The notes under the pieces: generated by a model
Database searches by the model: none
Seen by the model: the letters and a program-made list of their open reading frames with translations, nothing else
Told to the model about the DNA's origin: nothing
Shown here: positions 344 through 64,000 of the stretch, in pieces
Layout: every line of letters starts with the position of its first letter
How positions within the stretch are numbered: the stretch's first letter is position 1
NCBI GenBank assembly: GCA_022414725.1
Contig: CM039466.1
Coordinates: 34,144,271 to 34,208,270, forward strand
DNA length: 64,000 bases
Reading direction: 5' to 3'
Origin: Microglena sp. YARC
Taxonomy: Eukaryota; Chlorophyta; Chlorophyceae; Chlamydomonadales; Chlamydomonadaceae
Made by a program: the position numbers and the translations under genes

Positions 344-475
344 GCACACCAACCTCTATCCAAGAGTATCATGCCGTGCATTGAGAAGTGCATCAAGATA
401 GCTAACAATGGCGGCAACAAGGATGAGTGCCTTGATGGGGCATGCTACCCTGCTGCGGTCAAAGCTGACATGCAG
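344..475 (+). CDS. Sulfotransferase exon a
   Basis: The exon follows the acceptor ctattcag and ends ATGCAG|GTATGG. It is 132 nt, open through 44 codons in phase 0, and contains four cysteines (PCIEKC, DECLDGAC). It joins in phase to the 2692 exon. Three further copies of its 3' end plus donor follow it. Confidence 0.7.
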
Positions 476-3400
476 GTATGGTATGGTGTGGTGTGTGTGG
501 GGGGGGTGGGGTGGGGTGGGGGGGCCTGGCGGACTTGAGCCCAGACAACCAAGAACATATTATCATCCAGATAGCTACCAACGGGAGCAACAAGGAGGAG
601 TGCCTGGATGGGGCATGCTACCCCTGCTGCCGTCAAATCTGACATGCAGGTGTGGCGTGGTGGTGTGTGGGTGTGGTGGTGGTGGGTGGTGGTGGGGGTG
701 GATGGGGCATGCTACTCTGCTGCTGTCAAAGCTGACATGCAGGTGTGGTATGGTGTGGTGTGTGCGTGTCGTGGTGGTGGTGGGGGTGGGGTGGGGGTGG
801 ATGGGGCATGCTACCCTGTCGCAGTCAAAGCTAATGTGCAGGGGAGTGCTTGGCAGTGTTTTATTACCATTTAAGATTTATGTAGACCAGGTTGAGTAGC
901 TACTTGGGCTACTCAAGCCTGATTCCAAGATTGTTGCGTGGCCATCGCATGGTGGAGTGTGAAGTACTAAGCCTGGGGGGGTTGGACGGTTGCGCCAAAC
1001 CCATGCGTCGCCATGCAACGACGGCGACGAGTCTTTGGAAGAAAACAAGCTGGTGCTTGATACTTTAAAGGGTGCTCTCCCCCTTAGGTCGCTCTTGGCG
1101 TTGCAGGTCGTCGTCTACCGCAATGGTAGCTTGTCCAGTTGAGGTACGAGACCGCTCCCCACCTGCGTACGACGGGCTCCCTTAACACCACGCCCCATCA
1201 GGCGTTATCATTACCTTTAGAGGGTGCATGTCCCCTTCGTTGTATGCATGTTACAGTCCAGGGATAGGCCAAATAGGCTAAAGGGACTTCCCCAACCGTG
1301 TAGCAAGGGCTCAAACTGCTGTTTTGTCAGCTAGGCCACTATTTTAAGCGCGCTAAGTCTGTCATCTGCCACTACTACCGCTACCACCAACACAACAAGC
1401 ACCACAAGCACTACAAAACCTCCACCCCCACCCCCACCACCATCACCATCACAAGCACCACAAGCACAAACACTGAAAACGCCACGAACACCAACTCAAA
1501 CACCACACACACCACAAACGGCGCAAAGACCATATAAAACATCACAGACACCATAAATGCCACAAACACCACAAACACCACAACACACCACAACACACCA
1601 CAACACACCACAACACACCACAAACACCACAACACACCACAAACACCATAAATGCCACAAACACCACAACACACCACAAACACCACAAACACCACAACAC
1701 ACCACAACACACCACAACACACCACAACACACCACAAACACCACAACACACCACAAACACCATAGACACCATAAATGCCACAAACACCACAACACACCAC
1801 AACACACCACAAACACCACAACACACCACAACACACCACAACACACCACAACACACCACAAACACCACACCACACCACAAACACCGCACACACCACAAAC
1901 GGCGCGAACACCACAACACACCACAAACACCACAACACACCACAAACACCGCACGCACCACAAACGGCGCAAACACCACAACACACCACAAACACCACAA
2001 CACACCACAAACACCGCACTCACCACAAACGGCGCAAACAACACAACACACCACAAACACCACAACACACCACAAATACCGCACACACCACAAACGGCGC
2101 ACACACCATATAAAACACCACAGACAACACAAACACCACAACACACCACCACCGCAACCTTAGTGGCCGTTTCATCCCCTCCATTGAAAGCCTGCATTGC
2201 CGATTCATCCCTCCCAACCAACAACAGGTTGCAAGCGAGCACAAGATGGACTACATGCGCGATGCCATCACCCGGATGCTCATGTTATTCATTCCCTCCA
2301 TGTTAACCTAGATTGCCGCTTCACCCCCTCCAACCAAAACCAGGTTGCAAGCGAGCACAAGATGGACTACGTGCGCGATGCAATCAACCCGATGCTCATG
2401 TTATTCATTCCCTCCATGTAAACATAGATTGCCGATCCATCCCTTCCAACCAACACCAGGTTACAAGCGAGCACAAGATGGACTACATGCGCGATGCCAT
2501 CAACCCGATGCTCATGTTATTCATTCCCTCCATGTAAACATAGATTGCCGCTTCATCCCTTCCAACCAACACCAGGTTGCAAGCGAGCACAAGATGGACT
2601 ACGTGCGCGATGCAATCAACCCGATGCTCATGTTATTCATTCCCTCCATGTGAACCTAGATTGCCGCTTCATCTCTTCCAACCAACACCAGGTTGCAAGC
2701 GAGCACAAGATGGACTACGTGCGCGATGCAATCAACCCGATGTTCATGCGAGCAATGTACGGTCAGCATGAACCCAAGCTAGTGATCATGCTGCGAGAAC
2801 CTATCGCGCGCTTGCACTCAGCCTACTATGGGTAAGAACTAATCCAAGAAATCTGAATACCCACTTATCTTATAAATATTATTAATCCCCCCCCCCCCCC
2901 ACACCCCCCCCCACACCCCACACACACACACACATACATACAGTCACACAGTCCTTCACATGCATACAGCCTACTATGGGTAAGAACGAAACCAAGAAAC
3001 TTATCTTATCTCATTAATATTACTTACCCCCCCACACCCACACCCACACACACACCCACACCCACACACCCACACACACACACACACACTAACACACACA
3101 GTAGCACACAAACTAGCACCCGCACCCGCATACACCCACACCCACAGTCCTTCACGGACGTGCTCACTGCATGTCTTTTGTCGTACTTAATGAAAACAAC
3201 CAAGAAAGTGTTCCTTTGTCTCTGACGAGCCCAATGATAACATCAGCATGACATGCATACTGCACTCTATGTACATATGTAGATATTGACAACGCCTGGT
3301 AGGGCGTGGTATTAAGGGATCCCCGCCTTGCGGGGGTAGGGAACGGGCTGCTACTTTATCTGGACAAAACTACCATGGCGGTTGATAACAACCGCGAACA

Positions 3401-6400
3401 CTAAAGCGCATCCATACATGTAGACTTCATCACATACTGTATACATGTATCGACCTTTTCACACGCTACATAAAAAAAAGATAACACCTGGAGGGGCGTG
3501 GTGTTAAGTGTCACCCTCCAGGCGGGAGGGACTCCTTCATGCGACGTGTGGCAAGAATGCTGGTACAGGAGGCGATAGATTCTCTGTGCAGCTTGAGATG
3601 AGTTTGTCGTACGTACGTAGACTCACACTCTGCATACATATTTAGACCTTATAAGACGCTACATACATATTTATACCTTATCATACGCTACAGACATGTG
3701 TAGACTTTATCAAATGTACTTACGTTGACTTTGTCACACTCTACGTACTTACGTTGACTTTGTCACACTCTACGTACTTACGTTGAGTTTGTCACACTCT
3801 ACGTACTTACGTTGACTTTGTCACACTCTACGTACTTACGTTGACTTTGTCACATTCTACGTACTTACGTTGACTTTGCCACACTTTACATATATATTGC
3901 CATTTGTAGACCTTATCACATGCTATGTATGTATGAATGTATGTATGTATGTATGTATGTATGTATGTATGTATGTATGTATGTATGTATGTACCTACGC
4001 ACGTACGTAGACTGTATGTTCATACGTAGACTGTATGCCTTATCGACTGTATACCTTACAGACTGTATGTTCATACGTAGACTGTATGTACATACACAGA
4101 CTGTATACCTTACAGACTGTATGTTCATGCGTCAACAGTATGCACATACATAGACTGTATACCTTACAGACTGTATGTTTATGCGTCGACAGTATGTACA
4201 TACATAGACTGTATACCTTACAGACTGTATGTTTATGCGTCAACAGTATGTACATACATAGACTGTATACCTTACAGACCGTATGTTTATGCGTCAACAG
4301 TATGTACATACATAGACTGTATACCTTACAGACTGTATGTTTATGCGTCAACAGTATGTACATACATAGACTGTATACCTTACAGACTGTATGTTCATAC
4401 GTAGACTGTATGTACATACACAGACTGTATACCTTACAGACTGTATGTTCATGCGTCAACAGTATGCACATACATAGACTGTATACCTTACAGAATGTAT
4501 GTTTATGCGTCGACAGTATGTACATACATAGACTGTATACCTTACAGACTGTATGTTCATACGTAGACCGAATGCACATTCATAGACTGTATACCTTACA
4601 GACTGTATGTTCATACGTAGACTGTATGTACATACATAGACTGTATAACACTCTACTTACATAAATTTGGTAGACCTTAGTGTACTCTACTAGCATACAT
4701 TACTTGTAAACGCTGTATGGGGTCATAGTTATTCTTTTCAGCTACCAGCAGCAGCTTTTAGGCAGCTCCTCTGGCTGGCTACCCAGCCAAACATGTAGCA
4801 ATGTAGTGCAGCTGAAAGCTGGCAGAGTGGTCTTTCTAGCACTGCTGAAATCTTGGGGCTTGGCCTATTGGCTGGCTCAGGAAGCTGCCTAGAAGCTGCT
4901 GCTTGTAGCTGAAAATAAAAGCTATGTATGGGGTCCCATACACACACTTCAATACGTTGTTTTAAATTTGTGAAAGGACTTTCATCCCAGGAGGTGGGTC
5001 TCCCGACACAAACCTGCAACACCGAGGATTCAGTTCAAATGGCGTTGCCACTCCTACAAAATAGTAGGCGCACTTAGGGTCGGTGGGAGATACAGACCCT
5101 CGACTAAATGAACATTCACCACTACCTCTATTGACCACGTGAGACAAGCTTAACGATCACATACTTTCGCCCATCTCCTGCTCCTGCTCCTGTTCCATAA
5201 TAATGATAACGCCTGGTGGGGCGTGGTGTTAAGGGAGCCCGTCGTACGCGGGTGGGGAGCGGTCTCCTACCTCAACTGGACAAGCTACCATCGCGGTTGA
5301 CGACGACATGCAACGCCAAGAGCGACCGAAGGGGGAGTCGAACCCTCGACTCTTCATTCTTAAAGTGATTCAGTCTACCATTAGACCAATGTATGTCACT
5401 GAAAGAGGCTTCCTGTTCCACGGAACTCCCTAAGCTCATGCGCCTCCTTGTCTCCGTCCCCAATGCCCTCCACCACTGCCACAACCTGAGGATGTCACGC
5501 CTGGCCTCATCTCTTCTGCACCCCTTACCATGCCTTTAGCCCCTTTCAGTGATGTACATTGGTCTAGTGGTAGACCAAATCACTATGAGGACGAAGAGTC
5601 GGGGGTTCGATTCCCCCTACGGCCGCTCTTAGCGTTGCAGGTCGTTGTCAACCACGATGGTAGCTTGTCCAGTTGAGGTAGAAGACCGCTCTTTACCCTC
5701 GTACGACGGGTTCCCTTAACACCACGCCCCACCAGGCGTTATCATTACTATGCCTTTCTCTGCTCCTCTTCCTGCTGCATGGTATTACCTAACCTGATGC
5801 ACCTCCTCCGATCTGTCCCCCATGTCATCCACCACTACCACGACCTGCGAATGCCCCGCTTAGGATCATCTCTTCACCACCCCTCATCATGCTTTTCTCT
5901 GCTCCTCCTCTTGTTGCGCAGTACTACCTTATAATCTGCTGCACCTCCTCCTCTCCTTCCTCCGTGCCCTCCACCACAGCCACGACCTGCAGATGCCACG
6001 ATTAAGCTCATCTCTTCTCCACCCCTCATCATGCCTTTCTCTGCCCCTGTTCCTGTTCCTGTTGCGCAGTACTACCTTCAAACCTGCTGCACCTCCTTCT
6101 CTCCGTCCCCCATGCCCTCCACCACTGCTACATCCTGCAGATGCCACGATTAAGCTCATCTTTTCTCCACCCCTCATCATGCCTTTCTCTGCCCCTGTTC
6201 CTGTTCCTGCTGCGCAGTACTACCTTCTAACCTGCTGTACCTCCTCCCATCCATCCCCCATGCTCTCCACCACTGCCACGTCCTGCAGATGCCACGATTA
6301 AGCTCATCTCTTCTCCACCCCTAATCATGCCTGTCTCTGCTCCTCTTCCTGTTGCGCAATACCGCCTTCTAATCTCATGCACCTCCTCGTCTCCGTCCAC

Positions 6401-9400
6401 CATGCCCTCCACCACTGCCACGACCTGCAGATGCCACTTTGTGCTCATTATTTTTCCACCCCTCTTCATATTTTTCTCTGCTCCTCCTCTTGTTGCGCAA
6501 TACTGCCCTCTAACCAAGTCCCTTTCGCCTATTGGGCCTACCCCTGGACTGTAACATACTCACTAACCTGCTGCTCCTCCTCTCCTTCTCCCATGCCCTC
6601 CACCACTGCCACGACCTGCGGACGCCACAATTGTGTTCATCTCTTCTTCACCCCTCACCATGCATTCTCTTCGCAGCTACCCGCACTGTGAGTCTTAGAT
6701 AGGCCATATTATAAGTCATATTGAGACCATATTGTAACTCATATTTATACCATATTATTAGTCATATTGAGACTACATTAGTAATCATATTTATACCATA
6801 TTATTAGTCATATTGGGACCATATTATTAGTCAAATTGAGATCACATTATTAGTCATATTGAGACCATATTATAAGTCATACTGTACGCCTGGAAAATTA
6901 AAAATTGTGAACACAGGAGTAAACAAAGAGGTCCACACGCCATGCCTAAGAAACCTGGCGAGGGCTGACCCCCCCCCCCCCCCCCCCCCCCCTCCCCCCC
7001 CTCCTCCCATTAGATAGAAATAATATTTTTTGAAAAACTTAGATATAGATTTAGGGGAGTTACAATATATACAGCGCACACAATGGAGTCCTCGGATTTG
7101 CAGTGCCTGGATCGTGTGATCAGCAAACAAAAGTGAAAAGGTAATGATAACGCCTGGTGGGGCGTGGTGTTAAGGGAGCCCGTCGTACGCGGGTAGGGAG
7201 CGGTCTCCTACCTCAACTGGACAAGCTACCATCGCGGTTGACGACGACATGCAACGCCAAGAGCGACCGAAGGGGGAGTCGAACCCCCGACTCTTCATTC
7301 TTAGGCGATCTGGTCTACCACTAGACCATTGTGAATCACTGAAAGAGGCTAAACAAAAGTGATAATACCAAAAATATATGATAACACAAAAAATAAGTGA
7401 TAACACTGCCGTTGTCATATCTGAGAGACGGGACTAAATGATGTGAAACCACTTGACCCTCAACTCAGAGTATGAGATCATTGAATCATTAAGTGATTAA
7501 AACAATCATACAATTTATATTTAAATCAATTATAAAATCTTTTTTACACATTGAAACATCTAATCATGTAAACGCACCCTACCCCCCCTATCCTGACCCC
7601 CCCCTACCCTCCCTACCCTAAACTCCCCTAACCCCGTACCCTAAACCCCCCCACCCCACCCACCCCCACCCCACCCCACCCCACCCCACCCCACACACAC
7701 ACCCTGAACCCAGACTTCGGTGCTTTCGGCAAAAACTCAACGGGCTTCCTGAAGTATGTTAAAGAGCAAGTTGCTGCCTTCCAGGAGTGCTCTAAGGAGC
7801 ATGGGGATGTGAAGTGCGCTATCATGTTTGAGGTATGGGATGTGAATGGGGATGTGAAGTGGGCTATCATACGGGATGGGATGTGGAGCATGGGGATGTG
7901 CAGTGCGCTATCATATGTGAGGTATGGGATGTGATGTGAAGTGGGCTATCATACGGGATGGGATGTGGCGCATGGGGAAGTGCAGTGCGCTATCATATGT
8001 GAGGTATGGGATGTGAAGTGAAGTGGGCTATCATATGGGATGGGATGTGGAGCATGGGGATGTGCAGTGCGCTATCATATGTGAGGTATGGGATGTGAAG
8101 TGAAGTGGGCTATCATATGGGATGGGATGTGGAGCATGGGGATGTGCAGTGCGCTATCATATGTGAGGTATGGGATGTGAAGTGAAGTGGGCTATCATAT
8201 GGGATGGGATGTGGAGCATGGGGATGTGCAGTGCGCTATCATATGTGAGGTATGGGATGTGAAGTGAAGTGGGCTATCATATGGGATGGGATGTGGAGCA
8301 TGGGGATGTGCAGTGCGCTATCATATGTAAGGTATGGGATGTGAAGTGAAGTGGGCTATCATATGGGATGGGATGTGGAGCATGGGGATGTGCAGTGCGC
8401 TATCATATGTGAGGTATGGGATGTGAAGTGAAGTGGGCTATCATATGGGATGGGATGTGGAGCATGGGGATGTGCAGTGCGCTATCATATGTGAGGTATG
8501 GGATGTGAAGTGAAGTGGGCTATCATATGGGATGGGATGTGGAGCATGGGGATGTGCAGTGCGCTATCATATGTGAGGTAGGGGATGGCCTTTGCCCTAC
8601 GGCTGCCTGCACCCTGTCTAGTTTGTTGAACAGGTGTTCAGGGTGTTCAACATCTCAATATTAAAATACAAGGTTACAATTTAAGGTTGCAAAATAAGGT
8701 TACAATAGAAGGTTACAATTTAAGGTTACAATAGAAGGTTACAATATAAGGTTACAACAGAAGGTTGCAATATAAGGTTACAATATAAGGTTACAATTTA
8801 AGGTTACAATATAAGGTTACAATATAAGGTTACAATATAAGGTTACATTATAACGTTACAATTTAAGGTTACAATAGAAGGTTACAATTTAAGGTTACAA
8901 CATAAGGTTACAATATAAGGTTATAATTGAAGGTTACAATATAAGGTTACAATATAAGGTTACAACAGAAGGTTGCAATATAAGGTTACAATTTAAGGTT
9001 ACAATTGAAGGTTACAATATAAGGTTGCAATATAAGGTTACAATTTAAGGTTACAATTTAAGGTTACAATATAAGGTTGCAATATAAGGTTACAATATAA
9101 GGTTACAATTTAAGGTTACAATATAAGGTTACAATATAAGGTTACAATATAAGGTTACAATATAAGGTTACGATATAATGATACAATATAATGTTACAAT
9201 AATGTTACGGTAATGTTACAAAATAATGCCACAAGTTCACCTCTGGATTCATGTGTCTCTCCACTTTTCAGGCGCTAGGGTCTAAGCATGAGAAGGTCTA
9301 CTTTCACTGCGAGTGAGTTTGCAACCTCTGGCCTGACTTGACCTGACTTGCCTTGACCTGAATCGAAGCAAACTGACCTGACCTGTTGTTCTGTAAGTAG

Positions 9401-11270
9401 ACAGCATGATACTAGGCGTATCTGCCGTTGTCATATTTTAGGGTTGTCGAGTATGATATCGTGGTCACATAAAGCACAACTGACCTGACCTGACCTGACC
9501 TGACCTGACAGCATGATACTAGGTGTATCTGCCGTCAACCGTATGAAACGTGACTGGTTCTAGCCTCGTTGCCAACCTCGAGCAAGGTGAGCTTACGAAC
9601 CGGTGTCGATAAAAACACGTCCTTAGTAGGGTCAACTGTCCCCGGCAGTGTGACTTACTTGGATGTTCTAATTTTCAATTTTCAATTTTTTGGGACTAAG
9701 CATGAGAAGGTCTACTGGCATTGCAAGTGAGTGTGTGTGCAACCTCTGACCTGAACTGGACTGAACTGAACTGAACTGAACTGAACTGAACACAACTGAC
9801 TGAACTACACTAACCAAACCACATGACCTGAACTGGACTGAACTGAACTGAACTGAACTGAACTGAACTGAACACAACTGACTGAACTACACTGACCAAA
9901 CCACATGACCTAAACTGGACTGACCTGACCTGAACTGGACTGAACTGAACTGAACTGAACTGAACACAACCGACTGAACTACACTGACCAAACCACATGA
10001 CCTGAACTGGACTGGACTGAACTGAACTGAACTGAACACAACTGAACACAACTGACTGAACTACACTGACCAAACCACATGACCTAAACTGACCTGAACT
10101 GGACTGAACTGAACTGAACTGAACTGAACTGAACACAACCGACTGAACTACACTGACCAAACCACATGACCTGAACTGGACTGGACTGAACTGAACTGAA
10201 CTGAACACAACTGAACACAACTGACTGAACTACACTGACCAAACCACATGACCTAAACTGGACTGACCTGAACTGACCTGAACTGGACTGACTGAACTAC
10301 ACTGACCAGATCAAACCACATGACCTGAACTCGACTGACCTGAACTGACCTGAACTGAACTGAACTGAACTGGCTGATCTACTCTGAGCAAACCAAACCA
10401 CATGACCTGAACTGACCACACCTGACCAAACCAAACCGGCTGACCTGACCTGACATGTGTCACTTTAACTATTTCCTGCTGTGACAAGTGCGTGCTCACT
10501 TTACTCCTACCTCCCACCTCCAGACCTAAAGTACCAACTGAAGCAACAACTGAAGTACAAACTGAAGCACCAGCTGAAGTACAAACTGAAGCACAAACTG
10601 GTTGCCCTTCTTTGTCTTTGCAGCCAAATCCTGCGTAGCATGCACTCGGTTTGGATGGAAGGATGGTTGCGCTTTTTCCCACGCTCTTCCATTCTCGTGA
10701 TCAAGTGAGTGATTCAAAGATTTTTTGTATATGATGCATAAGTACTTTTTTTTTGACGACGCCTCACCATTCCGTCACTGAATGGCGACGCATGGGCCTG
10801 GCTCAAGTAGTCAGAAATGCCCCCCTAGAACCCTCCACGCTTCACGCCCTGCAAAATTCGGGGGGCAGCGCGTCACACTGGGGTTGCACTGAGGCAATCA
10901 ATTCGTGACGCGGCGCAAAACAAAAAGTAACCACAAAGTGCTACCCTCCGTCTTGGCAGCCAAATCCTGCGTGGTATGCATTTGGTTTGGATGGAGGGAT
11001 GGTTGCGCTTTTTCACACACTCTTCCATTCTTGTAATCAATTGAGTGATTAAAGAGAGTGCATCAACTGAGTAAAGCAGATTAGCAAAAAGATGAGTGAT
11101 TAAAGAGAGTACGTCGACTGAGTAAAGCAGATTAGCAAAAATAATCGTGATGAAAGCGAGTGCATCAACTGAGTAAAGCAGATTAGCAAAAATAATTGTG
11201 ATGAAAGCGAGTGCATCAACTGAGTAAAGCAGATTAGCAGAAATATGTTTGATGATATAAGTGGGATTAT

Positions 11271-11304
<34 letters not shown>

Positions 11305-11697
11305 AGGGGGCAAGGGGGGGGCAAAAAAAAGTGAAAGACCCCATCACAAAAAAGTGTGCAGGCACCCTTCTGCAGCCCCCCCCCTCCCCCGGCTCCGGAA
11401 CCCACTGTACAGCCACTATCTCAGCCACCACTTAGTGTTATGGTGTCTAATTATGCTCATTCTACAGGGTTTTCAAAAGCCTATCCATTGAGGTTGGTCT
11501 CGAGACCGTTGGGAATGTTTGAAACATAGAAAATCATCATCATCGATGTTACATCGTTTGATGGGGCTTGGAGATCAGTCAGTCCGTTAAAACAAAGTCA
11601 GTCAAAAAAGTCAGTCAAAAAAGAAGAAGCAGTGAACTACCACGAGGTCTTACTCTGTACTTCGTTGTACTCGTGTTGGTTACGACGCTGTGTGTGT

Positions 11698-52850: not shown

Positions 52851-53405
52851 TGTGTGAGTCATACAGGCAACTGTCACCGCAGACCTAGGCCTCCACATCT
52901 GTCGTTTGTGAGTCAGTGACAAGGATCAGCCCCGGTCAGAGGTGGTGGTCGATGTGACCATGGCTGCTATCTGCTAACAACCATCCAAATCATCTGCTAT
53001 CTGCTACCAACCATCCGATATCTGCTAACAACCATCCAAAATGTCACCGGGACATCGTTGTGTGAGTCATATGGAACCCTGCTAACAGAGGCTGGTCATT
53101 GTCACAGACACACAAACCACTAAGATGTGGAGGCCTAGGTCTGGTGCTACCTTTGCTTGTATGACGCACATAACGATGTCTCCGTGATATTTTGGATGGT
53201 CACATCCACCACCAACACTAACAAGGGCTGATCATTGTCACAGACACACAAACGACAGATGTGGAGGCCTAGGTCTGGTGCTACCGTGGCCTGAATGACT
53301 GAAATAACGATGTCTTTGTGATATTTTGGATGGTCACATCGACCACCAACACTGACCGTGGCTGGTCATTGTCACATACACACAAATGACTAAGATGTGG
53401 AAGTC
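52850..53405. repeat. Large foldback with repeated arms
   Basis: The left arm (52855-52935: GACCTAGGCCTCCACATCTG, GTTTGTGAGTC) is the inverse of blocks at 53090-53170, 53215-53300 and 53345-53405 (CAGATGTGGAGGCCTAGGTC). ACCATCCAAAATGTCACCGG pairs with the later ATATTTTGGATGGTCACATC. Non-coding. Confidence 0.75.
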
Positions 53406-53414
53406 TATGTGTCC

Positions 53415-53590
53415 TGCATATCATATGATGTTGACCAAAGGCGAGTATGATATCATATGATGTCACACAAATTGCATCATACAACATTGTTCATACATGG
53501 TAACTTTATCTTAGTCAGACTGCCGGTATCATACGATGTCATGTGATGACATGCTATCATATGATATCATATTGCCGTTCCCTATCCATA
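53415..53590. repeat. Palindromic family D element
   Basis: CATATGATGTTGACCAAAGG ... ATCATATTGCCGTTCCCTA, collinear with the inverse of 37507-37660. Confidence 0.7.
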
Positions 53591-53639
53591 CGACCATCCA
53601 AGAAGTCAATCTTGTGTGATACATGCAGGCCCCAGATCT

Positions 53640-53800
53640 AGGTGGGAGCCCCCAGGGTTACCCATATGTCCATATGTCCGACCATCCCGCCGAGACGAAG
53701 CCTGACATGTCAGCCTATGGTCTTGTAACTGACTCGCATCCGTTGCCACCTGTTGCTCCGTCCCGAACACCTCTCTGCCAATTTTTAACGTCGCTTGCGA
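53640..53800. repeat. Dispersed repeat family H
   Basis: AAGCCTGACATGTCAGCC ... CCGTTGCCACCTGTTG, homologous to 17020-17215. Confidence 0.65.
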
Positions 53801-53814
53801 CGCTGCATAGAACT

Positions 53815-54849
53815 TGGGCCTCTACATCATCTGCATCCATCACTGTACCCAGCCCTGGTTGGTAGTGCTCATGATCCAATAAGTCCATGCGGTAGTCGCA
53901 TAGGTCCAGGGAGCCACAGGAGCTTGCAGTGGGAGAGTTTCTTTTCCCAACCAATCACATGCAGGCAACACTTTGCCAAGATCTAGGCCTCTGCATCACC
54001 TGCATCCATCACTGTACCCAGCCCTGGTTGGAAGTGCTCATGATCCAATAAGTCCATGCGTATGTGTGGCATATGCACAGGGAGCCACAGGAGCTGGCAG
54101 TGGGAGAGTTTCTTGTCCCAACCAATCACATGCAGGCAGCACTTTGCCCAGATCTAGGCCTCTGCATCACCTGCATCCATCACTGTACCCAGCCCTGGTT
54201 GGAAGTGCTCATGATCCAATAAGTCCATGCGTATGTGTGGCATATGCACAGGGAGCCACAGGAGCTTGTAGTGGGAGAGTTTCTTGTCTCAACCAATCGC
54301 AGAAAGGCGACGCTAACCCTAGATCTAGGCCTCTGCATCATCTGCATCCATCACTGTACCCAGCCCTGGTTGGTAGTGCTCATGATCTAATAAGTCGATA
54401 TAGGAGTCGTATAGGTCCAGGGAGCCACAGGAGCTGGCAGTGGGAGATTTTTTGTTGTCCCGACCGATCGCATAAAGGCAACTCTAAGCCCATATCTAGG
54501 CCTCTGCATCATCTGCATCCATCACTGTACCCAGCCCTGGCTGGTAGTGCTCATGATCTAATAACTTAATAAGTCGATGCGGGAGTGGTACATGTCCAGG
54601 GAGCTACAGGAGCTACCGGTGGACAATTTTCATGTACCAACCAATCGCAAAAAGGTGACACTAAGCCCAAATCTAGGCCTCTGCATCATCTGCATCCATC
54701 ACTGTACCCAGCCCTGGCTGGTAGTGCTCATGATCTAATAACTTAATAAGTCGATGCGGGAGTGGTACATGTCCAGGGAGCTACAGGAGCTACCGGTGGA
54801 CAATTTTCATGTACCAACCAATCGCAAAAAGGTGACACTAAAGCCCAAT
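53815..54849 (-). repeat. Gene-tail array of the CDPK
   Basis: Six extra units of 165-180 bp downstream of the real stop (54850). Each repeats the C-terminal codons SSCGSLDL-D-RMDLLDHE, the TAG stop (CTAGGCCTCTGCATCATCTG on plus) and flank. Units diverge with distance. Confidence 0.93.
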
Positions 54850-55071
54850 CTAGGCCTCTGCATCATCTGCATCCATCACTGTACCGCAGCCTGGTTGGTA
54901 GGGCTCATGATCTAATAAGTCCATGCGGGAGTCGTATAGGTCCAGGGAGCCACAGGAGCTACCAGTGGGAGAGTTTCTTGTCCCAACCAATCGCATGAAG
55001 TCGTCGAATTCAAGTCCTTCATTGGCATCCAGTGCAGTGTCCATAAGCATTTCTTGGATAGCAAGGTTCAC
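54850..55071 (-). CDS. CDPK last exon (EF-hand 4, tail, stop)
   Basis: Acceptor CACCCCAG, 73 codons plus TAG. It encodes VNLAIQEMLMDTALDANEGL and EFDDFMRLVGTRN, then a Ser/Asp-rich tail. In the EF4 loop, position 1 is Ala. Confidence 0.88.
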   Translation of the reverse strand: MNLAIQEMLMDTALDANEGLEFDDFMRLVGTRNSPTGSSCGSLDLYDSRMDLLDHEPYQPGCGTVMDADDAEA

Positions 55072-58000
55072 CTGGGGTGGGTGGGTGGGTGGGTGGGAAT
55101 GGGTGTGTGGGGGTTGGTGGTGGTGAGTGGGGTGGGTGTGTGGGGGTTGGTGGTTGTGTGTGGGGTGGGGGGTGGGATGGGTGTGTGGGGGTTGGTGGTG
55201 GTGAGTGGGGTGGGGGGTGGGGTGGGTGTGTGGGGGTTGGTGGTTGTGTGTGGGGTGGGGGGGTGGGATGGGTGGTGTGGGGGTTGGTGGTGGTGAGTGG
55301 GGTGGGGGGTGGGATGGGTGTGTTGGGGGTTTGGTGATTGTGTGTGGGGTGGGGGGGTGGGATGGGTGTGTGGGGGTTGATGGTGGTGAGTGGGGTGGGG
55401 GGGTGGGATGGGTGGGGGTTGGTGGTGGTGAGTGGGGTGGGGTGGGTGGGATGGGTGGGTGGGGTTGGTGGTGGTGAGTGGGGTGGGGGGTTGGGATGGG
55501 TGTGTGGGGTTGGTGGTTGTGTGTGGGGGTGGGGGGGTGGGATGGTGTGTGGGGGTTGATGGTGGTGAGTGGGGTGGGGGGGTGGGATGGGTGGGGGTTG
55601 GTGGTGGTGAGTGGGGTGGGGTGGGTGGGATGGGTGGGTGGGGTTGGTGGTGGTGAGTGGGGTGGGTGTGTGGAAGTGGGGGGTGGTGGTTGGTGGTGGT
55701 GTGGGGAGTGGGGGTGGTGGTGGGGTGGGGTGGGGAGGTGTTGGTAGGGGAGGAAGTGCGGGAGTTGGGAGGTGAACATGGTGGGGGGCTGGGTCCACGA
55801 GCATCTTTTGGACAGCAAGGTTTAATTGGGGATGGTTTGGTTTGGCGTGGTTTGGCATGGTTTGGCGTGGTTTGGTTGGTAGTGCTGCGGTCAGATTTTG
55901 GTTTGGCGTGGTTTGGTTGGTAGTGCTGCAGTCAGATTTTGGTCAGACTGGGTGCTTTTGAGACAAGTGTTCTAGTCCCTTTTGCTTTCGTAAACCTCCT
56001 CCTCACTCCTCTCTTCGATAGCTTAGTAAACATGGGGATGGTCTGCTTTTGAGTGCTGTGGTCTGATTTTGGTCAGACAGGGTGATTTTGAGACAAGTGT
56101 ACTAGTCCCTTATACTTAGCAAAGCTCCCTTCCACCACTCAATTGGATATCACGGTCGACACAATAATGGTTTGGTTTGGTTTGGTCTGATTTGGAGTGT
56201 TGTGGTCTGATTTTGGTCAGACAGGGAGCTTTTGAGACACGCGTCCTAATATCTTATGCTTAGCAAAACTCCCTTTCACCCCTCTCTTTGATATCAACCT
56301 GGTTTATGTGGTACACGCCCTCTTTGATAGCATGGTTGACACAGGGATGGTTTGGTTTCGAGTGTTGTGGTCTGATTTTGGTCAGGCAAACAGGTGTTCC
56401 AGCCCCTTATGCTTTATTGAGACCCCCCCCCCACCCACCCCCACCACCCACCCATCCACACACATTCACACACACCACCCCAACAGCATGCAGTATACAT
56501 GACACATCAATAAATAAGTACATGTACACACAAACCAGTAGACACCGACAAATGAGTAAATGTGTGCGCAAATCAGTACATGAGTCCACTAACCAAGATG
56601 TGTGTAAATGTAGACATCAATCAATACATGAACATATATATTTTATTTATACACCAATGTATGAGGGCACGTAAATACACAGCAGGATACATCAGTACAT
56701 GAGGACAAGCATACTGCCAATCAATACATGAGGGCACGTACCGCATACACCAATACAAACATGAGGACACAAATACACAAATCAATACATGAGCACAATT
56801 ATAACCGATACATGAGGGCACGTACCGCATGCACCAATACATACATGAGGACACACAGACACAAATCAATACACGAGCACAATTATAAACCAATACATGA
56901 GGGCACGTACCGCATGCACCAATACATACATGAGGACACGCAGACACAAATCAATACATGAGCACAATTAAAACCAATACATGAGGGCACCTACAGCATA
57001 CACCAGTACATACATGAACACATTGACTAAGACATGAGCACATGAATACATCAATCAATACGAGAACACATTTCTACATCGAAATATGAGGACACATATA
57101 TGCAAAGCAGTACACACCAGTATATAAGGACACACACCGCATGCACCAATCAATAGATGAGTACATTGACCAAGAAATGAGTAAATGCACGTTAACATCG
57201 ATCAATCGATCAACTGATCAATCAATCAATAAATGAATGAATGAATGAATGAATGAATGAATCAATCGATTAATCAATCAATACATACATACATAAGCAC
57301 AATTATAAATTAATACACGAGGACAGATATATGCCGTAAACAGCAGTATGCACCAGTACACCAGGACGCGCATACACCAATACATACATGCGTACATGTA
57401 TACACAAGTACACAAGGGTGTGCACTTGTGTATATATGTATACACAAGTAATTACTAGTTGTGTATACATATACACCCTCGTGTACATGTATACACAAGT
57501 ACACGAGGGTGTATAACGCCTACACCAATACATACATGCGTACATGTATACACAAGTACTCGAGGGCGTGTACCACATACACCAATCAATGCATGTGTAC
57601 ATGTATACACAAGTACACGAGGGCGTGTACCGCTTACACCAATACATACATGCAGAAATGTATACACAAGTACACGAGGCCGTGTACCGCATAAGTTAAT
57701 ACATACATGCAGAAATGTATACACAAGTACACGAGGGTGTGAACCGCATACGCCAATCCAGACATGCGTACGTGTATACACAAGTACACGAGGGCGTGTA
57801 CCGCATACACCAATACATACATGCGTAGATGTATACACAAGTACAAGAGGGCGCGTACCGCATACACCAATACATACATGCGTACATGTATACATGAGGA
57901 CAAGCATACACACGGCAGTTCAACCCACCTCTTCCTCCGGAAGTTTTTCACCCAGCAGTCGCATAATCTCGCCCATGTTGATCCGACCCGTCTTGCTTGT

Positions 58001-61000
58001 GTCAATGTCTTCGAATGTCTTCATAAGACACTTTGTCCATTCTTCTCGGTGGTTTGCCTCAAAGGCTCGCCAGTCAACCTGCTCACAATAGGACGGAATA
58101 GGCAATCAGACAACAGAGCAAGGAGGAGATAGCGGGGAGGAGTTGCTGTACATGAAGCTTGATTGTGTCAATATCTTGGAATGTTGTCATAAGCCACTTC
58201 GTCCATTCTTCTGGGTGGTTTGCCTCAAAGGCGCGCCAGTCAACCTTCCCACAATAGGGAGGAATTGGCAATCAGACAATAGAGCAAGGGGGGGGATAGC
58301 AGGGAGGAGTTGCTGTACATGAAGCTTGATTGTGTCAATATCCTTTGAATGTCTTCCGAAGGCACCTTGTCCAATCTACTCAGTGGTGTGCCTCAAAGGC
58401 TTGCCAGTCAACCTGATCACAGCAGGGAGGAATAGGCAATCAGACAATATAGTGCAAGGAGGGGATAGCGGGGAGGAGTTGCTGTACATGAAGCTTGATT
58501 GTGTCAATATCCTTGAATATATTCATAAGCCACTTTATCCATTCTTCTAGGTGGTTTGCCTAGAAGGCTCGCCAGTCAACCTGATCACAGCAGGGAGGAA
58601 TAGGCAATTAGACAATATATAGTGCAAGGAGGGGATAGCGGGGAGGAGTTGCTGTACATGAAGCTTGAGTGTGTCAATATCCTTGAATATATTCATAAGC
58701 CACTTCGTCCATTCTTCTCGGCGTTTTGCCTTTAAGGCGCGCCATTCAACTTGATCACAGCAGGGAGGAATAGGCAATCAGACAATATAGAGCAAGTGGG
58801 GGATAGCGGGGAGGAGTTGCTGTACATGAAGCTTGAGTGTGTCAATATCCTTGAATACATTCATAAACCACTTTATCCATTCTTCTCGGTGGTTTGCCTA
58901 GAAGGCTCGCCAGTCAACCTGATCACAGCAGGGAGGAATAGGCAATTAGACTATATATAGTGCAAGGAGGGGATAGCGGGGAGGAGTTGCTGTACATGAA
59001 GCTTGAGTGTGTCAATATCCTTGAATATATTCATAAGCCACTTCATCCATTCTTCTCGGTGTTTTGCCTTGAAGGCGCGCCATTCAACCTGATCACAGCA
59101 GGGAGGAATAGGCAATCAGACAATATAGAGCAAGTGGGGGATAGCGGGGAGGAGTTGCTGTACATGAAGCTTGAGTGTGTCAATATCCTTGAATACATTC
59201 ATAAACCACTTTATCCATTCTTCTCGGTGGTTTGCCTAAAAGGCTCGCCAGTCAACCTGATCACAGCAGGGAGGAATAGGCAATTAGACAATATAGTGCA
59301 AGGAGGGGATAGCGGGGAGGAGTTGCTGTACATGAAGCTTGATTGTGTCAATATCCTTGAATATCTTCTGAAGCCACTTCGTCCATTCTTCTCGGTGGTT
59401 TGCCTCAAAGGCTCGCCAGTCAACTTGATCATGATGGAAAGGAACAGGGGTGGGTGGTTGGGGTGGTTGGGGGTGGGGGTGGGTTGTGCTGCTGTGTTTA
59501 TGCTTGTCTTCATGTTGTGGTGTGTTAGTGTACTCATGCATTTATTTGTGTATACGGTACTCATGTACTGAAGAAGAAGAAGAAACTATCGGAGCGAACA
59601 GGGGTGCGTTAGGGTGGGTAGGGGGGGGGGGGGGGGGGGGGGGGCGGTGTGTGTTTGTGTGTGCGTGTGTGTGTGTGCGTTAGGGTGGGTAGGGGTTACA
59701 ATTTAGGTCAAACAGACGATGGAGAAAAGTGGATAAGCAATCATGACTGACCCCCATGGCTTTCTTAAACACTCTTTTGAAAATGGCTTTCTTAAACACT
59801 CTTTTGAAAATTTCATCACTATCATCATCATCATCACCATCATCACCACTCCCACCACCACCACCACCACCATCATCATCATTATCATCATCAAAACCAG
59901 CACCACCATCATCACCATCATCACCACCACCATCATCATTATCATCATCACCATCATAATCACCATCATCACCACCACCAACATCATAATAACCATCACC
60001 ACCATCATCATCACTACCACCACCACCATCATAATCACCCATCACCACCACCATGATCACCACCACCACCTTAACCAGCATCACCATCACCACCTTCATC
60101 ATCATTATCATCATCACCACCATAATCACAACCACCACCACCATCACCATCATCATCACCACCACCACCACCACCATCATCACCACCACCAACACTATCA
60201 CCACCATCATCACCACCATCATCACCATCATCATCACCACCACATCGCCACCACCATAGCACCACCACCACCACCACAATCACCGCCACTACCATCATTA
60301 TCATCATTTGCAAGTTACGAGTCTCGACAACAAATAACCATAAGTACCGAACTCTTCATGAAATCATGACCATTATTCTGAAAATGTCATCATCAGCAGC
60401 AGCAGCAGCATCGGCAGCACACCTGGCTAGCAATGAACTGTGCCTGGCTGATGGTGGAGTTGGCGGAGCCCACAGCGACCTCCCTCAACAGAATCTCTAC
60501 CTCAGAGGGGTCCAGCTGGTAACCTGGGGTTGGGGTTTGATTTGGGGGTTAGAGTTTGGGGATGGGGTTTGGGGATGGGGTGGAGGGTGGTTGGGTGGTT
60601 GTGTGTGTGGTGAGTGTGTGTGGTAGGGCCCGCCCTATATCCGCCGCTACAGCGACCTCCCTCAACAGAATCTCAACCTCAGAGGGGTCCAGCTGGTAAC
60701 CTGGGGTTGGGGTTTGATTTGGTGGGTTTGGTTTGGTGGGTTTGGTTTGGGGGTTTTGGTTTGGAGGGTTTGGTTTGGTGGGTTTGATTTGGTGGGTTTG
60801 GTTCTGGGGGTTTGGTTTGGGGGTTTGGTTCTCGGGTTTGGTTCTTGTGGGTTTGGTTCTGGGGTTTGGTTTGGTAGGTTTGGTTTGGTGGGTTTGGTTC
60901 TGGGGGTTTGGTTTGGTGGGTTTGGTTTGGTGGTTTGGTTCTGGGGGTTTGGTTCTGGGGGTTTTGGTTTGGGGGGTTTGGTTCTGTGGGTTTGGTTCTG

Positions 61001-61748
61001 GGGGTTTGGTTTGGTGGGTTTGGTTCTGGGGTTTGGTTCGGGTTTGGTTTGGTTTTGGTTTGGTGGGTTTGGTTCTGGGGGTTTGGTTTGGTGGGTTTGG
61101 TTCTGGGGGTTTGGTTTGGGGGTTTGGTTTGGTGGGTTTGGTTCTGTGGGTTTGGTTCTGTGGGTTTGGTTCTGTGGGTTTGGTTTGGTGGGTTTGGTTC
61201 TGTGGGTTTGGTTTGGTGGGTTTGGTTTGGTGGGTTTGGTTCTGTGGGTTTGGTTTGGTGGGTTTGGTTCTGTGGGGGTTTGGTTTGGTGGGTTTGGTGG
61301 GTTTGGTTCTGTGGGTTTGGTTTGGTGGGTTTGCTTTGGTGGGTTTGGTTCTGTGGGTTTGGTTTGGTGGGTTTGGTTCTGGTGGTTTGGTTTGGGGGGG
61401 TTTGGTTCTGGTGGTTTGGTTTGGTGGGTTTGGTTTGGGGGTTTGGTTTGGGGGATTGGATTGGATGTGTGGTGAGTGTTTGCGGTAGTGCCCTCCCCAT
61501 ATCTGCCGCTACAGCGACCTCCCTCAGCAGAACTTCAACCTCAGAGGGATCCAGCTGGTAACCTGGAGTGTGGGGTGGGAGGGGGACCCCACCTCAAAGT
61601 CCACAACAAGGACTCCTGTAGAGCAAAAGGAAATACTTTTTCTTATTAGCCCTTCCTGCCACGGTTGTCCCTTTAGCCTATTGGGCCCACCCCTGGACTG
61701 TAACATACATACATAAACTAGGAATCCAGTGGAGCAACGGGAAAAGTG

Positions 61749-61991: not shown

Positions 61992-62336
61992 TATCATCAC
62001 CACCACCATCATCATCATCATCATCATTATTATCATCACCACCATCATCATCATTATCATCACCACCATCATCATCATCATCATTATCATCACCACCACC
62101 ATCATCATCATCATCATCATCATCATTATCATCATCATCATCATTATCACCACCATCATCATCATCATCATCATCATCAACAACAATCAAAGTCCTCACC
62201 CATGTGCCGTAGTCCCTCACTGATTTCTTCATAAGACAGTTGCTCGTTGGCGTCGTAGTGCAGCTGGGACAACACTTCCACAAGCTGCTCCAGCTCACCT
62301 GATAGGTGTCAGCAAGGGTGTGTGTGTGTGTGGGAG

Positions 62337-62367
<31 letters not shown>

Positions 62368-64000
62368 GCGTATATTCTGCATCAGCTCCCTGAGGTTGTG
62401 CGTGGGGGTGAGGGTGAGGGTGCAGGTGAGTATCGTTTATTCTTCATACGCTCCCTGCCCATGTCCTGTCTCTTAGTGCTGCTGGGACAACACTTCCACA
62501 AGCTGCTCCAGCTCACCTGGTAGGTTTCAGCAAGGGGGAGGGATGGGGGAGTGGTTGGGGGTGAGGGTGAGTAGCGTTTATTATGCATACTCTTTCTTCC
62601 CTCGTCCTGTCTTGTACTGCTGCTGGGTCAACACTTCCACAAGCTGCTCCAGCTCACCTTAAAGGTTTCAGCAAGGTTGGGGGGTGAGGGTGGGGGTGAG
62701 GGTGTGTATGAGGGTGTGGTTGTGGTTGTGGTTGTGGGTGAGGATGGGGGTGAGGGTGAGTAGCACATATTCTGACTACACTTTCTGCCCACGTCCTGTC
62801 TCGCAGTGCAGCTGGGTTAACACTTCTACGGGCTGCGCCAGCTCAACCTGGTAGGTTTCAGAAAGGGGGAGGGGGATGGGGTGTGAGGGGGGGGGGGAAG
62901 GGGGGGGGAGGGTGTGGGAGGGGGGGGATGTGAGGGTGAGGGTGAGGGTGAGGTTTTGGGTGGGGGTGAGGTTGAGGGTAAGGTTGAGGGTGGGGGTGAG
63001 TGTGAGGGCGGGGGCGAGGGTGAGGATGGAAGTGAGGGCAATGGTTAGGGTAAGGGTGAGGGTGAGGGTGAGGGTGAAGACAAGGGTGAGGGTTAGGGTG
63101 TGGGTGAGTAGTGTCGATAATATCGATGTTTTCATCCATTTGCATCCATTTGTTCTTCCCGCAGACGGGGAGCGGCAAAAATACTCATGTATAGAGCATG
63201 TCATAAAATCAAAGAAAGAAATACATCAACAGTGTTCCTTATTACGAGGCGTGAGGTTGAGGGGGCCAGCCCGTTTGCTTGCACTGGGGCCAACCATCAT
63301 TAATTAAAACTGAATCTTAGTTCAATTTGATTAATCAATCATAAATGGTAAGGCGTACTTTTTATTCATTCAAGTGTGCATTTGGTGGTCGGCCCCAGTG
63401 CAAGCAAACGAGCTGCCCCCCTCAACCTCAGGCCTCATAATAAAGCGTAATATTTATTTATTTACTTGTTATTGAAGACGCCACCACTTAAAAAAGCTCC
63501 TCTGTTATGGGGTCTTTCAATATGCCTATGCCTATAAGATCAGGGTTTTTTATTTCAGATTTCTGTAGTCCAGGTTGAGTAGCTACTTGGGCTACTCAAC
63601 CCCGATTTCAGGATATTTGCGTAGCCATCGCATGGCGGAGTGCCAAGCGCGGAGCCTGGGGGGGTCGGGGGGCAGTGCGTCCCGATATCGGGGGGTCCGG
63701 TGGGTGAAGCATTCGACGGAATGGCGACGGAATGGCGACGCGTCGTCGAAAAAAGAAACACTGTATAAGATCCAGTATTTTCTAGAACGCTATAGCACTT
63801 ACAACACCTTGTATCTCAAATCAAACTAAGATGCAAACAAACGTGTTCTCACCTGTACCAGGGAGCAATAGGGCCAAGCCACATTCCGCCACGCCCCTCC
63901 TGACAGCAGCCACTTGATTGATGCAGACAAACCTGTTCTCACCTGTACCAGGGAGCAATAGGGCCAAGCCACATTCCGCCACACCCCTCCTGACAGCAGC
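54850..64000 (-). CDS. Calcium-dependent protein kinase (CDPK), calmodulin-like C-terminus, 5 exons, 5' partial
   Basis: CDPKs couple a Ser/Thr kinase to a C-terminal EF-hand domain. Only that domain is inside the window. Exons in order are >64000-63943, 62298-62200, 60523-60423, 58078-57929 and 55071-54850, with compatible phases at every junction. EF-hand region 1 is QLHYDANEQLSYEEISEGL, then GYQLDPSEVEILLREVAVGS, ISQAQFIASQVDWRAF, the canonical loop DTSKTGRINMGE within LLGEKLPEEE, and finally DANEGLEFDDFMRLV. The tail GSLDLYDSRMDLLDHEPY resembles green-algal CDPK tails. Of four EF-hand positions only the third has a full Ca-ligand set. The others keep the fold pattern but lack Asp at position 1. 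A non-kinase EF-hand protein is possible, but the ASQxDW and EGLRxMGYxL segments favour CDPK. Confidence 0.8.
55072..55830 (-). repeat. GGGTGGGATGGGTGTG minisatellite and one 3'-splice-site copy
   Basis: About 700 bp of GGGGTTGGTGGTGGTGAGTG units, C-rich on the sense strand, before the 55071 acceptor. At 55785-55830 a decayed copy of the exon start encodes LNLAVQKMLVDPA. Long frames here are Gly/Val/Trp or Pro/His/Thr repeats. Confidence 0.92.
55831..56410. repeat. About 125-150 bp tandem array
   Basis: Three to four units with GTTTGGTTTGG, GTGCTG-GGTCAGATTTTGGTC and TTTTGAGACAAGTGT. Intronic to the CDPK. Confidence 0.8.
56411..57928. repeat. CACCCACC, AATACATGAGGGCACGTACC and TACACAAGTACACGAGGGCG arrays
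   Basis: Several nested arrays, A/C-rich on plus and so G/T-rich on the sense strand, downstream of the CDPK donor at 57929. (AATG)n at about 57235-57265. No exon found. Confidence 0.85.
57929..58078 (-). CDS. CDPK exon with canonical EF-hand
   Basis: Acceptor GAGCAG, donor GAG|GTGGGT, exactly 50 codons in phase 0. VDWRAFEANHREEWTKCLMK, TFEDI, then the loop DTSKTGRINMGE with D1, S3, T5, G6, I8, E12, followed by LLGEKLPEEE. Confidence 0.9.
58079..59440 (-). repeat. About 170-bp array of 3' splice site + EF-hand exon start
   Basis: Eight extra units repeat the acceptor and the exon's first 80 nt or so, encoding VDWRAFEANHREEWTKWLM and DIDT. All stop before the calcium loop and continue into ACAGCAACTCCTCCCCGCT. 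Units at 58490-59330 are very similar to one another, some with small deletions at the acceptor. Confidence 0.94.
59450..60422. repeat. G-run, GTGT and (CAT/CAC)n tracts in CDPK intron
   Basis: Poly-G at 59618-59645, a GGTTTAAGAAAG duplication around 59757-59810, then about 480 bp of CATCATCACCACC. Frames are Ile/Thr/His or Asp/Gly repeats. Confidence 0.93.
60423..60523 (-). CDS. CDPK exon (EF-hand 2 region)
   Basis: Acceptor ACCCCAG, donor AGCCAG|GTGTGC, 101 nt. It encodes YQLDPSEVEILLREVAVGS and ANSTISQAQFIASQ. The EF2 loop is degenerate (VGSANSTISQAQ). Confidence 0.88.
60524..61570 (-). repeat. 3'-splice-site copies of the 60523 exon in (GGGTTTGGTTTGGT)n
   Basis: Two extra copies (about 60637-60705 and 61486-61563) of acceptor plus first 70 nt, encoding YQLDPSEVE-LLREVAV, flank about 750 bp of GGGTTTGGTTTGGT minisatellite. 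The minisatellite resembles the sequence immediately before each acceptor. Confidence 0.92.
61640..61712 (+). mobile_element. Family B copy, truncated
   Basis: TTAGCCCTTCCTGCCACGGTTG ... CCACCCCTGGACTGTAACATA, quoted in part, followed by a short CATACATA tail. Confidence 0.65.
61740..62195. repeat. (CAT)n tracts with family C copy
   Basis: (ATC)n blocks at 61748-61780 and 61865-62180 separated by family C (GTGAAAGCAAACGGGCTGGC ... AATAAGGCGTAC). They lie directly downstream of the CDPK donor at 62200. Confidence 0.93.
62200..62298 (-). CDS. CDPK exon (EF-hand 1)
   Basis: Acceptor CTATCAG, donor ATGG|GTGAGG, 99 nt. It encodes ELEQLVEVLSQLHYDANEQL and SYEEISEGLRHM. In the EF1 loop, position 1 is His rather than Asp. 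The last base joins GT of the next exon to give Gly. Confidence 0.88.
62310..63115 (-). repeat. (GGGTGA)n with 3 copies of the 62298 3' splice site
   Basis: Copies of the exon start (GAGCTGGAGCAGCTTGTGGA on minus) occur at about 62475-62525, 62620-62665 and 62805-62855, in GGGTGAGGGTGAGG DNA. The six-base unit is on the sense strand C-rich (TCACCC), abutting each acceptor. Confidence 0.92.
63116..63547. repeat. Two family C copies and unique intron
   Basis: 63235-63300 is inverted relative to 63345-63462 (CCCCAGTGCAAGCAAACGAG ... CATAATAAAGCGTAATATTTATT, quoted in part). Nothing gene-like. Confidence 0.75.
63548..63765 (+). repeat. Dispersed repeat family E, best copy
   Basis: About 218 bp from TTTTATTTCAGATTTCTGTAG through GGGCTACTCAACC, CGTCCCGATATCGGGGGGTC and a GGAATGGCGACG duplication to GCGTCGTCGAAAAAAGAAAC. 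Non-coding, probably a non-autonomous element. Confidence 0.8.
63853..63942 (-). repeat. 90-bp copy of an exon end + 5' splice site
   Basis: CTGGTACAG|GTGAGAACA with about 60 nt of exon upstream occurs twice, with donors at 63851-63852 and 63941-63942, 90 bp apart. Confidence 0.85.
63943..64000 (-). CDS. CDPK upstream exon, 3' end only
   Basis: In the frame that fits the phase of the 62298 exon it reads RRGVAECGLALLLPGT and then joins to give G-ELEQL. Plausible as the junction region before EF-hand 1. The exon continues beyond the window. Confidence 0.55.

Follow-up and report, generated by a model that had tools for sequence, protein, structure and literature searches.

Variation in intron length and the origin of intron DNA are open questions, for which transposons and random repeats are usually invoked. 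In this study we describe a window of 64,000 nucleotides (the whole stretch that was analysed) from contig CM039466.1 of Microglena sp. YARC, in which exon edges of three genes (a sulfotransferase-like gene, DRC7 and an EF-hand-like gene) are copied into local tandem arrays. Among the described systems, introner-like elements place the same element in the introns of many genes, and tandem cassette exons of the Dscam type repeat whole exons in frame. Two further topics, the origin of human introns in tandem arrays (Zhuo et al. 2007) and the duplication of segments inside genes (Gao and Lynch 2009), are reportedly related, a likeness that we take from the titles alone. An introner family common to several genes is not seen within the window: in a self-comparison at E 1e-10, covering matches that are inverted or separated by over 5 kb, no edge-array unit recurred in another gene, simple repeats and the dispersed segment 4989-5123 excepted, and this segment recurs within the array at the sulfotransferase stop codon. 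Cassette exons of the Dscam type were rejected as well, since the copies are partial edges save at two small exons (ST3b and ST3c) and 11 of 25 rounded unit lengths are multiples of three.

In the potato RdRp gene a single tandem duplication across an intron-exon boundary created a new intron (PMC4974935), and Drosophila provides documented cases of proto-splice sites duplicated in tandem (PMC2891723). As presented in the accessible part of the potato report, this was one event in one gene and it made a new intron, whereas here most edges of three genes are affected, with up to 45 extra copies, and no new intron is seen. The Rogers model, in which introns are made by tandem duplication of coding segments containing AGGT, shares with our arrays a local tandem duplication involving splice signals; it differs, as far as the accessible parts of these sources describe it, in that its signature is found in none of 19 introns here and that existing introns appear to have been lengthened. 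Intronic minisatellites lie near alternative exons in C. elegans (PMC4039745), and in the part of that source open to us the likeness is one of repeated units in introns near exons, whereas in the window the unit takes in the exon edge and each array belongs to one edge alone. None of the accessible parts of PMC4974935, PMC2891723 and PMC4039745 describes unrelated genes in which most edges are amplified, and no description of comparably extensive exon-edge arrays came to our notice in the partly accessible open literature, which is weak evidence of absence as subscription journals fall mostly outside it.

Arrays at the exon edges of three genes

Our results concern three genes in one 64-kb window of one assembly. 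To judge from the encoded proteins, the window comes from the nuclear genome of a chlamydomonadalean green alga. Exon-intron junctions were set by homology and GT/AG signals, and their placement is predicted from sequence. Using a strict probe of 40 + 40 nt across 37 junctions and two stop codons, with copies sought on the same strand within 6 kb, we found a local copy spanning the junction at 20/37 junctions and at both stop-codon edges in the window. A looser probe, with the four edges of ST3b and ST3c added (the ST3c probe positions, 10622/10706, being 1-2 nt off), gave 24/41 junctions with copies; donors were amplified more often than acceptors (15/20 versus 9/21, P=0.058). Hence the original prediction that most exon edges are amplified is borne out, if narrowly. 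Of the 22 copy-bearing edges (20 junctions and two stops), 21 have their extra copies on the non-coding side, as had been claimed for the intron side, although the geometry of tandem duplication demands this nearly by definition; the sole exception with an exon-side copy is the CDa donor at 63853, at the window end. Among the copies listed (at most 12 per edge) identity to the functional edge is 76-97%. The exon part in the copies ranges from 19 to about 120 nt, apart from ST5, whose nearest copy gave 2 nt and its neighbours 35-38, and hand-rounded array units range from about 48 to 414 nt with a median of 165.

The local observation of exon-edge arrays is thus confirmed. All eight arrays named in the original prediction were found, with copy numbers about as claimed: at the 3' sites 2692 (4 extra copies, exact 116-nt spacing), 19341 (10), 58079 (8) and 62299 (3), and at the 5' sites 7832 (10), 12856 (45), 33630 (13) and 38884 (8). 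That the exon body is present only once holds in general; ST3b and ST3c, however, are duplicated in full or almost in full, and ST4 and DRC7 exon f also have copies of exon sequence without the acceptor.

The sulfotransferase-like gene occupies 344-19463 on the plus strand. Its stitched exons match Pfam Sulfotransfer_1 (E 0.004) and Sulfotransfer_2 (E 0.008), both under the curated cut-offs, and in a protein search none of 155 candidates scored. The small exons ST3b and ST3c were located by hand, and at least one further exon probably lies between 2831 and 7714, because the phases of the flanking exons mismatch. DRC7 lies on the minus strand at about 30.4-43.6 kb. The EukProt protein P0001, which has strong Pfam matches to DRC7 domains, matches 7/11 exons at 96.6-100%; the other four alignments are lower because flank or array copies entered (exons c and e) or because of frameshifts (x and a). 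Chlamydomonas eustigma DRC7 (P0002) is about 38-88% identical per aligned stretch, and no relatives of P0001 were found in collections of genome and viral contigs. Exons a and x show scattered indels against P0001 where the remaining exons are clean, which looks like residual sequencing error, and a gap of 1000 N (45606-46605) lies a few kb away from them. The third gene, on the minus strand at 57.9-64 kb, consists of EF-hand-like exons with weak matches. Its earlier label as a calcium-dependent protein kinase (CDPK) is unsupported, because its predicted protein, P0036, shows no kinase or EF-hand family among Pfam matches at E up to 0.01. Rfam gave no match at the gathering threshold. The predicted exons are as follows.

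344-475, plus strand, exon ST1 (by reading frame and GT/AG; weak Pfam Sulfotransfer_1/2 on the stitched protein)
2692-2831, plus strand, exon ST2
7714-7832, plus strand, exon ST3
9272-9312, plus strand, exon ST3b, 41 nt
10624-10704, plus strand, exon ST3c
12718-12856, plus strand, exon ST4
19341-19463, plus strand, exon ST5, the last, with the stop codon at 19463
30455-30700, minus strand, DRC7 exon j, the last, with the stop at 30455 (97.6% to P0001)
31197-31484, minus strand, DRC7 exon i
32051-32225, minus strand, DRC7 exon h
33630-33820, minus strand, DRC7 exon g
34868-35074, minus strand, DRC7 exon f
35576-35854, minus strand, DRC7 exon e
37017-37237, minus strand, DRC7 exon d
38884-39047, minus strand, DRC7 exon c
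40103-40481, minus strand, DRC7 exon b
41489-41718, minus strand, DRC7 exon a
43364-43626, minus strand, DRC7 exon x
57929-58078, minus strand, EF-hand-like gene exon CDd
60423-60523, minus strand, EF-hand-like gene exon CDc
62200-62298, minus strand, EF-hand-like gene exon CDb

Edge by edge, the arrays and copies are these.

476-845, plus strand, ST1 donor-edge array, 2 extra copies (copy junctions 648 and 742)
2175-2691, plus strand, ST2 acceptor-edge array, 4 extra copies, period 116
2832-3100, plus strand, ST2 donor-edge copy (junction 2979)
7833-8587, plus strand, ST3 donor-edge array, 82-nt unit (sub-units of about 44 + 38), 10 extra copies by strict probe
9676-9735, plus strand, near-whole copy of ST3b including the donor, 78%
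about 336 nt downstream of 10624-10704, plus strand, whole copy of ST3c with both edges
12549-12614, plus strand, copy of ST4 exon sequence without the acceptor
12857-16897, plus strand, ST4 donor-edge array, 45 extra copies, period 89, higher-order period 266 nt
18156-19340, plus strand, ST5 acceptor-edge array, 10 extra copies, period about 116
19464-20691, plus strand, array at the sulfotransferase coding end (stop-codon edge), 5 extra copies by strict probe, periods 165 and 360
29742-30454, minus strand, array at the DRC7 coding end (stop-codon edge), 7 extra copies, period 77
31485-31929, minus strand, exon i acceptor-edge array, 2 extra copies
31934-32050, minus strand, exon h donor-edge array, 2 extra copies
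32570-33629, minus strand, exon g donor-edge array, 13 extra copies
around 35148-35153 (family 35010-35205), minus strand, copy of exon f sequence, neither edge with a junction-spanning copy
35233-35575, minus strand, exon e donor-edge copy (copy junction 35269)
35855-36247, minus strand, exon e acceptor-edge array, 2 extra copies by looser probe, 0 by strict, period about 180
36306-37016, minus strand, exon d donor-edge array, 3 extra copies
38491-38883, minus strand, exon c donor-edge array, 8 extra copies, 90-nt (48 + 42) unit
39276-39560, minus strand, exon c acceptor-edge copy (copy junction 39338)
39574-40102, minus strand, exon b donor-edge array, 3 extra copies
40815-41295, minus strand, exon a donor-edge copies, 1 by strict probe, 2 by looser
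41719-42182, minus strand, exon a acceptor-side tandem array, unit about 153, unscored by either probe and outside the count of amplified junctions
43130-43268, minus strand, exon x donor-edge copy (copy junction 43186, GT lost there)
58079-59448, minus strand, CDd acceptor-edge array, 8 extra copies, period 168, higher-order period 338 nt
60524-61576, minus strand, CDc acceptor-edge copies (junctions 60701 and 61564, a 14-nt satellite in between)
62299-62980, minus strand, CDb acceptor-edge array, 3 extra copies
63830-64000, minus strand, CDa exon and donor in 90-nt tandem units truncated by the window end, the single scored copy exon-side

The multi-copy edge arrays consist, by Tandem Repeats Finder (TRF), of head-to-tail units longer than 10 nt, as minisatellites do. 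Three of them have higher-order periods (266 over 89, 338 over 168 and 90 over 48), which points to ordinary array turnover. Adjacent copies in the 46-copy ST4 array are about 94% alike (TRF), whereas the 12 of its copies that were listed match the functional edge at 81-86%, and turnover would therefore proceed apart from the constrained exon. The position of the edge in the unit is variable, the exon part making up 0.08 to 1.0 of it (a misaligned ST5 value of 0.02 aside); breakpoints on the exon side are abrupt, and no shared motif was found in them by eye. In view of these two observations a fixed splice-site target is unsupported. The arrays are not specific to splicing either, because the coding ends of the sulfotransferase-like gene (19463) and DRC7 (30455) are amplified likewise; in DRC7 the match extends 80 nt into the coding sequence and the unit is roughly the last 77 coding nt. 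With both stop-codon edges amplified and the phase of the edge variable, a splice-site-specific mechanism was rejected. That the copies contain GT or AG needs no targeting, since a duplication spanning an edge geometrically includes the splice site.

Counting each array once

In raw coordinates there is no excess at junctions: 20/37 (54%) are copied, against 63%, 50% and 68% of complexity-filtered points in the intron interiors of the three genes (69%, 53% and 78% unfiltered). Exon interiors have a local copy at 15% of points (58/394, raw), and the 20.7-29.7 kb region between the first two genes, mostly a retrotransposon and its surroundings, at 10% of filtered points (44/441). The raw intron figure is high because long arrays dominate it, many of which are themselves edge arrays; therefore each array was counted once, in three ways.

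A hand list holds 31 intron arrays with units of at least 29 nt (it omits short-period arrays with units below 29 nt, dispersed repeats, the two stop arrays and the CDa array). Of these, 25 touch an exon edge where 10.0 would be expected with introns collapsed to single copies (P 1.8e-11), or 13.9 if the introns are also stripped of simple repeats and transposon pieces (P 1.7e-7). In collapsed coordinates, for which the removal intervals were chosen by hand and low-complexity and dispersed positions were dropped, 0.56-0.69 of positions are duplicated in the first 20 nt on both sides of an edge. Inside exons the fraction is 0.10-0.16 at a distance of 75-200 nt, and in introns it drops from 0.13 (200-300 nt) to 0.01 (300-500 nt). 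An automatic version, in which each position is weighted by 1/copies and the interior figure leaves out intron positions that copy exon or edge-zone sequence, found 51% of exon-side and 57-64% of intron-side positions duplicated up to 60 nt from an edge; for the interiors of exons and introns the figures were 12% and 13-17%. The three counts agree, and they support the conclusion that duplications in these three genes cluster at exon borders, provided that every array enters the count once. The predicted enrichment at junctions therefore stands, within this window, against exon interiors and per array, but not against raw intron positions.

Origin of the arrays

What has to be explained was seen directly: the arrays, their concentration at edges (once per array), the amplification of both stop edges, the variable unit phase and the higher-order periods. 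The reading that we cautiously favour, and hold to be just about probable, is that these are ordinary minisatellite-type arrays whose founding duplications arise most readily no more than about 100 nt from an exon border, the end of a coding sequence counting as one. A duplication of about 50-400 nt across an exon edge would leave an intact exon and, on the non-coding side, a second, partial edge. Selection would preserve the intact exon and ignore the additional copy, and slippage or unequal exchange between copies would then enlarge some arrays (up to 46 copies), apart from the functional edge. In this way introns would lengthen from their ends and fill with copies of exon edges.

The edge bias itself would be mutational. 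This is favoured because selection should tolerate duplications in intron interiors at least equally, yet only 13-17% of the interiors are duplicated. Erosion of older interior copies explains the difference poorly, since the intron parts of the edge arrays are still mostly 77-100% alike (60% at the exon x donor). The original prediction had offered two options, a process that duplicates DNA specifically at exon/intron borders or selection that tolerates duplication only there. The second is insufficient for the reason just given; of the first, the concentration at borders holds per array and the specificity for splicing falls with the two amplified stop edges, and our inference favours a local mutational bias over selective tolerance. 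As to its trigger one may guess that the polymerase pauses at exon boundaries and gene ends, or that R-loops or transcription-replication conflicts occur there; this would fit the excess of donors over acceptors and the arrays at stop edges. A low-complexity intron flank was rejected as trigger (27.8 versus 29.0 distinct 3-mers at duplicated and other edges, P=0.34).

Several observations weigh against a preference for exon edges. The excess hinges on counting arrays once, the raw coordinates giving none, and both the array list and the removal intervals were chosen by hand for three genes of one window. In the unassigned region at 43.7-57.8 kb, away from known exons, 201/517 filtered points (39%) are locally copied. 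Six of the 31 arrays, all in the sulfotransferase-like gene, are off any known edge, and three of the 25 edge arrays (at the acceptor sides of ST4 and of DRC7 exons f and a) have no junction-spanning copy by the probes. The collapsed duplicated fraction returns to 0.18 beyond 500 nt into introns and is 0.43 in the exon bin at 200-300 nt (28 points, all in DRC7). Where two or three copies exist, the spacing in several cases exceeds the length of the shared module; such repeats are not cleanly head-to-tail, and later insertion or loss between copies must be assumed. The exon-part fractions depart mildly from uniform (Kolmogorov-Smirnov P=0.024), and flank complexity, examined as a trigger, fails to separate duplicated from other edges.

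Could there be no edge bias at all? Duplications might occur everywhere in repeat-rich non-coding DNA, units of about 165 nt reaching exons by chance from short ancestral introns, with selection removing those that break exons. The raw intron figures, the copies at 43.7-57.8 kb and the six non-edge arrays would all agree with this, as would the broad unit phase and the shortness of the collapsed introns (median about 400-730 nt). Yet 25 edge arrays were found against 13.9 expected even with minimal ancestral introns, intron interiors counted once reach 13-17% against 57-64% on the intron side of edges, and the fraction falls to 0.01 at 300-500 nt into introns; we regard this alternative as rather unlikely. 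It is very improbable that the copies are retained for a function, for example to hold alternative splice sites in reserve or to act as length spacers. GT is kept in 85/90 donor copies and AG in 26/30 acceptor copies (the CDa copy unscored), and the gene models P0001 and P0036 take some copies as exons. However, the 25 nt that flank the edge to left and right are highly identical as well (mostly 0.76-1.00), so GT/AG retention is not clearly above the general identity of the copies, and copies within one array are not independent. In addition, 11 of the 25 rounded unit lengths are multiples of three, which gives no clear frame preference, the stop-codon edges are duplicated too, and reading past the first donor in the ST3 and ST4 donor arrays meets a stop codon. 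No evidence for use of the copies was found in the sequence.

An assembly artefact that created or inflated the repeats is very improbable. The 1000-N gap, the scattered indels in two DRC7 exons and the difficulty of assembling the exact copy number of long arrays would speak for it, but a simple echo of the assembly is disfavoured by the listed copies, which differ by 3-24% from the functional edge, and each array has its own unit. Moreover P0001 includes a translated exon e array copy and apparently comes from other sequence, because it is intact where the window is frameshifted. As for the Rogers model, the copies do bear splice signals and the process is established in other organisms, as far as the accessible parts of the potato and Drosophila reports go. 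In our test the first and last 150 nt of each intron were compared with 100 nt of each exon end, the cut-off being the 99th percentile of other-intron pairs. The 5' end of the intron resembled the start of the downstream exon in 0/19 introns, and the 3' end resembled the end of the upstream exon in 0/19. Their own adjacent exon was resembled by 12/19 intron 5' ends and 9/19 intron 3' ends. With no cross-similarity in any intron we rejected intron gain from AGGT segments, to which the original prediction had pointed; it seems exceedingly improbable here.

Our preferred reading, a mutational preference for exon borders, can be extended to the genome. Exon boundaries, that is splice sites and coding ends, might be genome-wide hotspots of tandem duplication in this lineage, with introns growing outward and a large share of their DNA descending from edge copies, driven by mutation and possibly coupled to transcription or co-transcriptional processing. 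We consider this possible but doubtful. If true genome-wide, it would amount to a mutational process favouring exon borders and to a route by which cryptic splice sites emerge in bulk, and it would account for duplicated peptide fragments in automatic algal gene models.

Intron content and other elements of the window

About a third of the intron DNA in the three genes, some 11.1 kb (9.1 kb complexity-filtered) of 34.4 kb, consists of copies of exon or edge-zone sequence and is thus traceable to the neighbouring exon edge. The median intron measures 1439 nt raw and about 401 nt after arrays, simple repeats or low-complexity DNA and transposon pieces have been removed by hand. Median introns in core-Reinhardtinia algae are 198-343 nt in the accessible part of one survey (PMC8226300), so the stripped median lies near theirs, which fits growth of the introns through edge arrays and other repeats. 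The introns also show a GC skew that is higher in the first part than in the last in 16/19 (P 1e-4), the donor end being G-rich and the acceptor end C-rich. Looping of introns by pairing of the G-rich 5' with the C-rich 3' end was rejected, as the pairing energy within an intron is no better than between introns.

Automatic gene models absorb array copies: P0001 contains a copy from exon e and P0036 several 30-residue units. Predicted proteins of such genomes may therefore hold false repeats. Complex arrays with units of 134, 171, 84 and 57 nt lie at 53082-55006, 56722-57017 and 57483-57894, with no exon assigned; if the edge rule is true, the EF-hand-like gene should have further, undiscovered exons at these places.

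A dispersed repeat of about 140-220 nt occurs in both orientations, 84-95% identical, at 1077-1218, 5196-5752, 7136-7353, 21406-21623 and 49180-49330. Searches with three dispersed-repeat patterns, two in viral contigs and one in genome contigs, found no relatives. The region 22894-27972 is a Copia-type long terminal repeat (LTR) retrotransposon with RVT_2 and integrase domains. Its LTRs are two 249-nt direct repeats (246/249 identical) that begin with TGTTA and are flanked on both sides by CTAAG, and its coding region consists of two overlapping frames (23602-26475 and 26418-27173). Finally, a 13-nt satellite, TTACAATATAAGG, forms a 41-copy intron array at 8616-9237 and a short inverted stretch at 21623-21722, downstream of the sulfotransferase-like gene.

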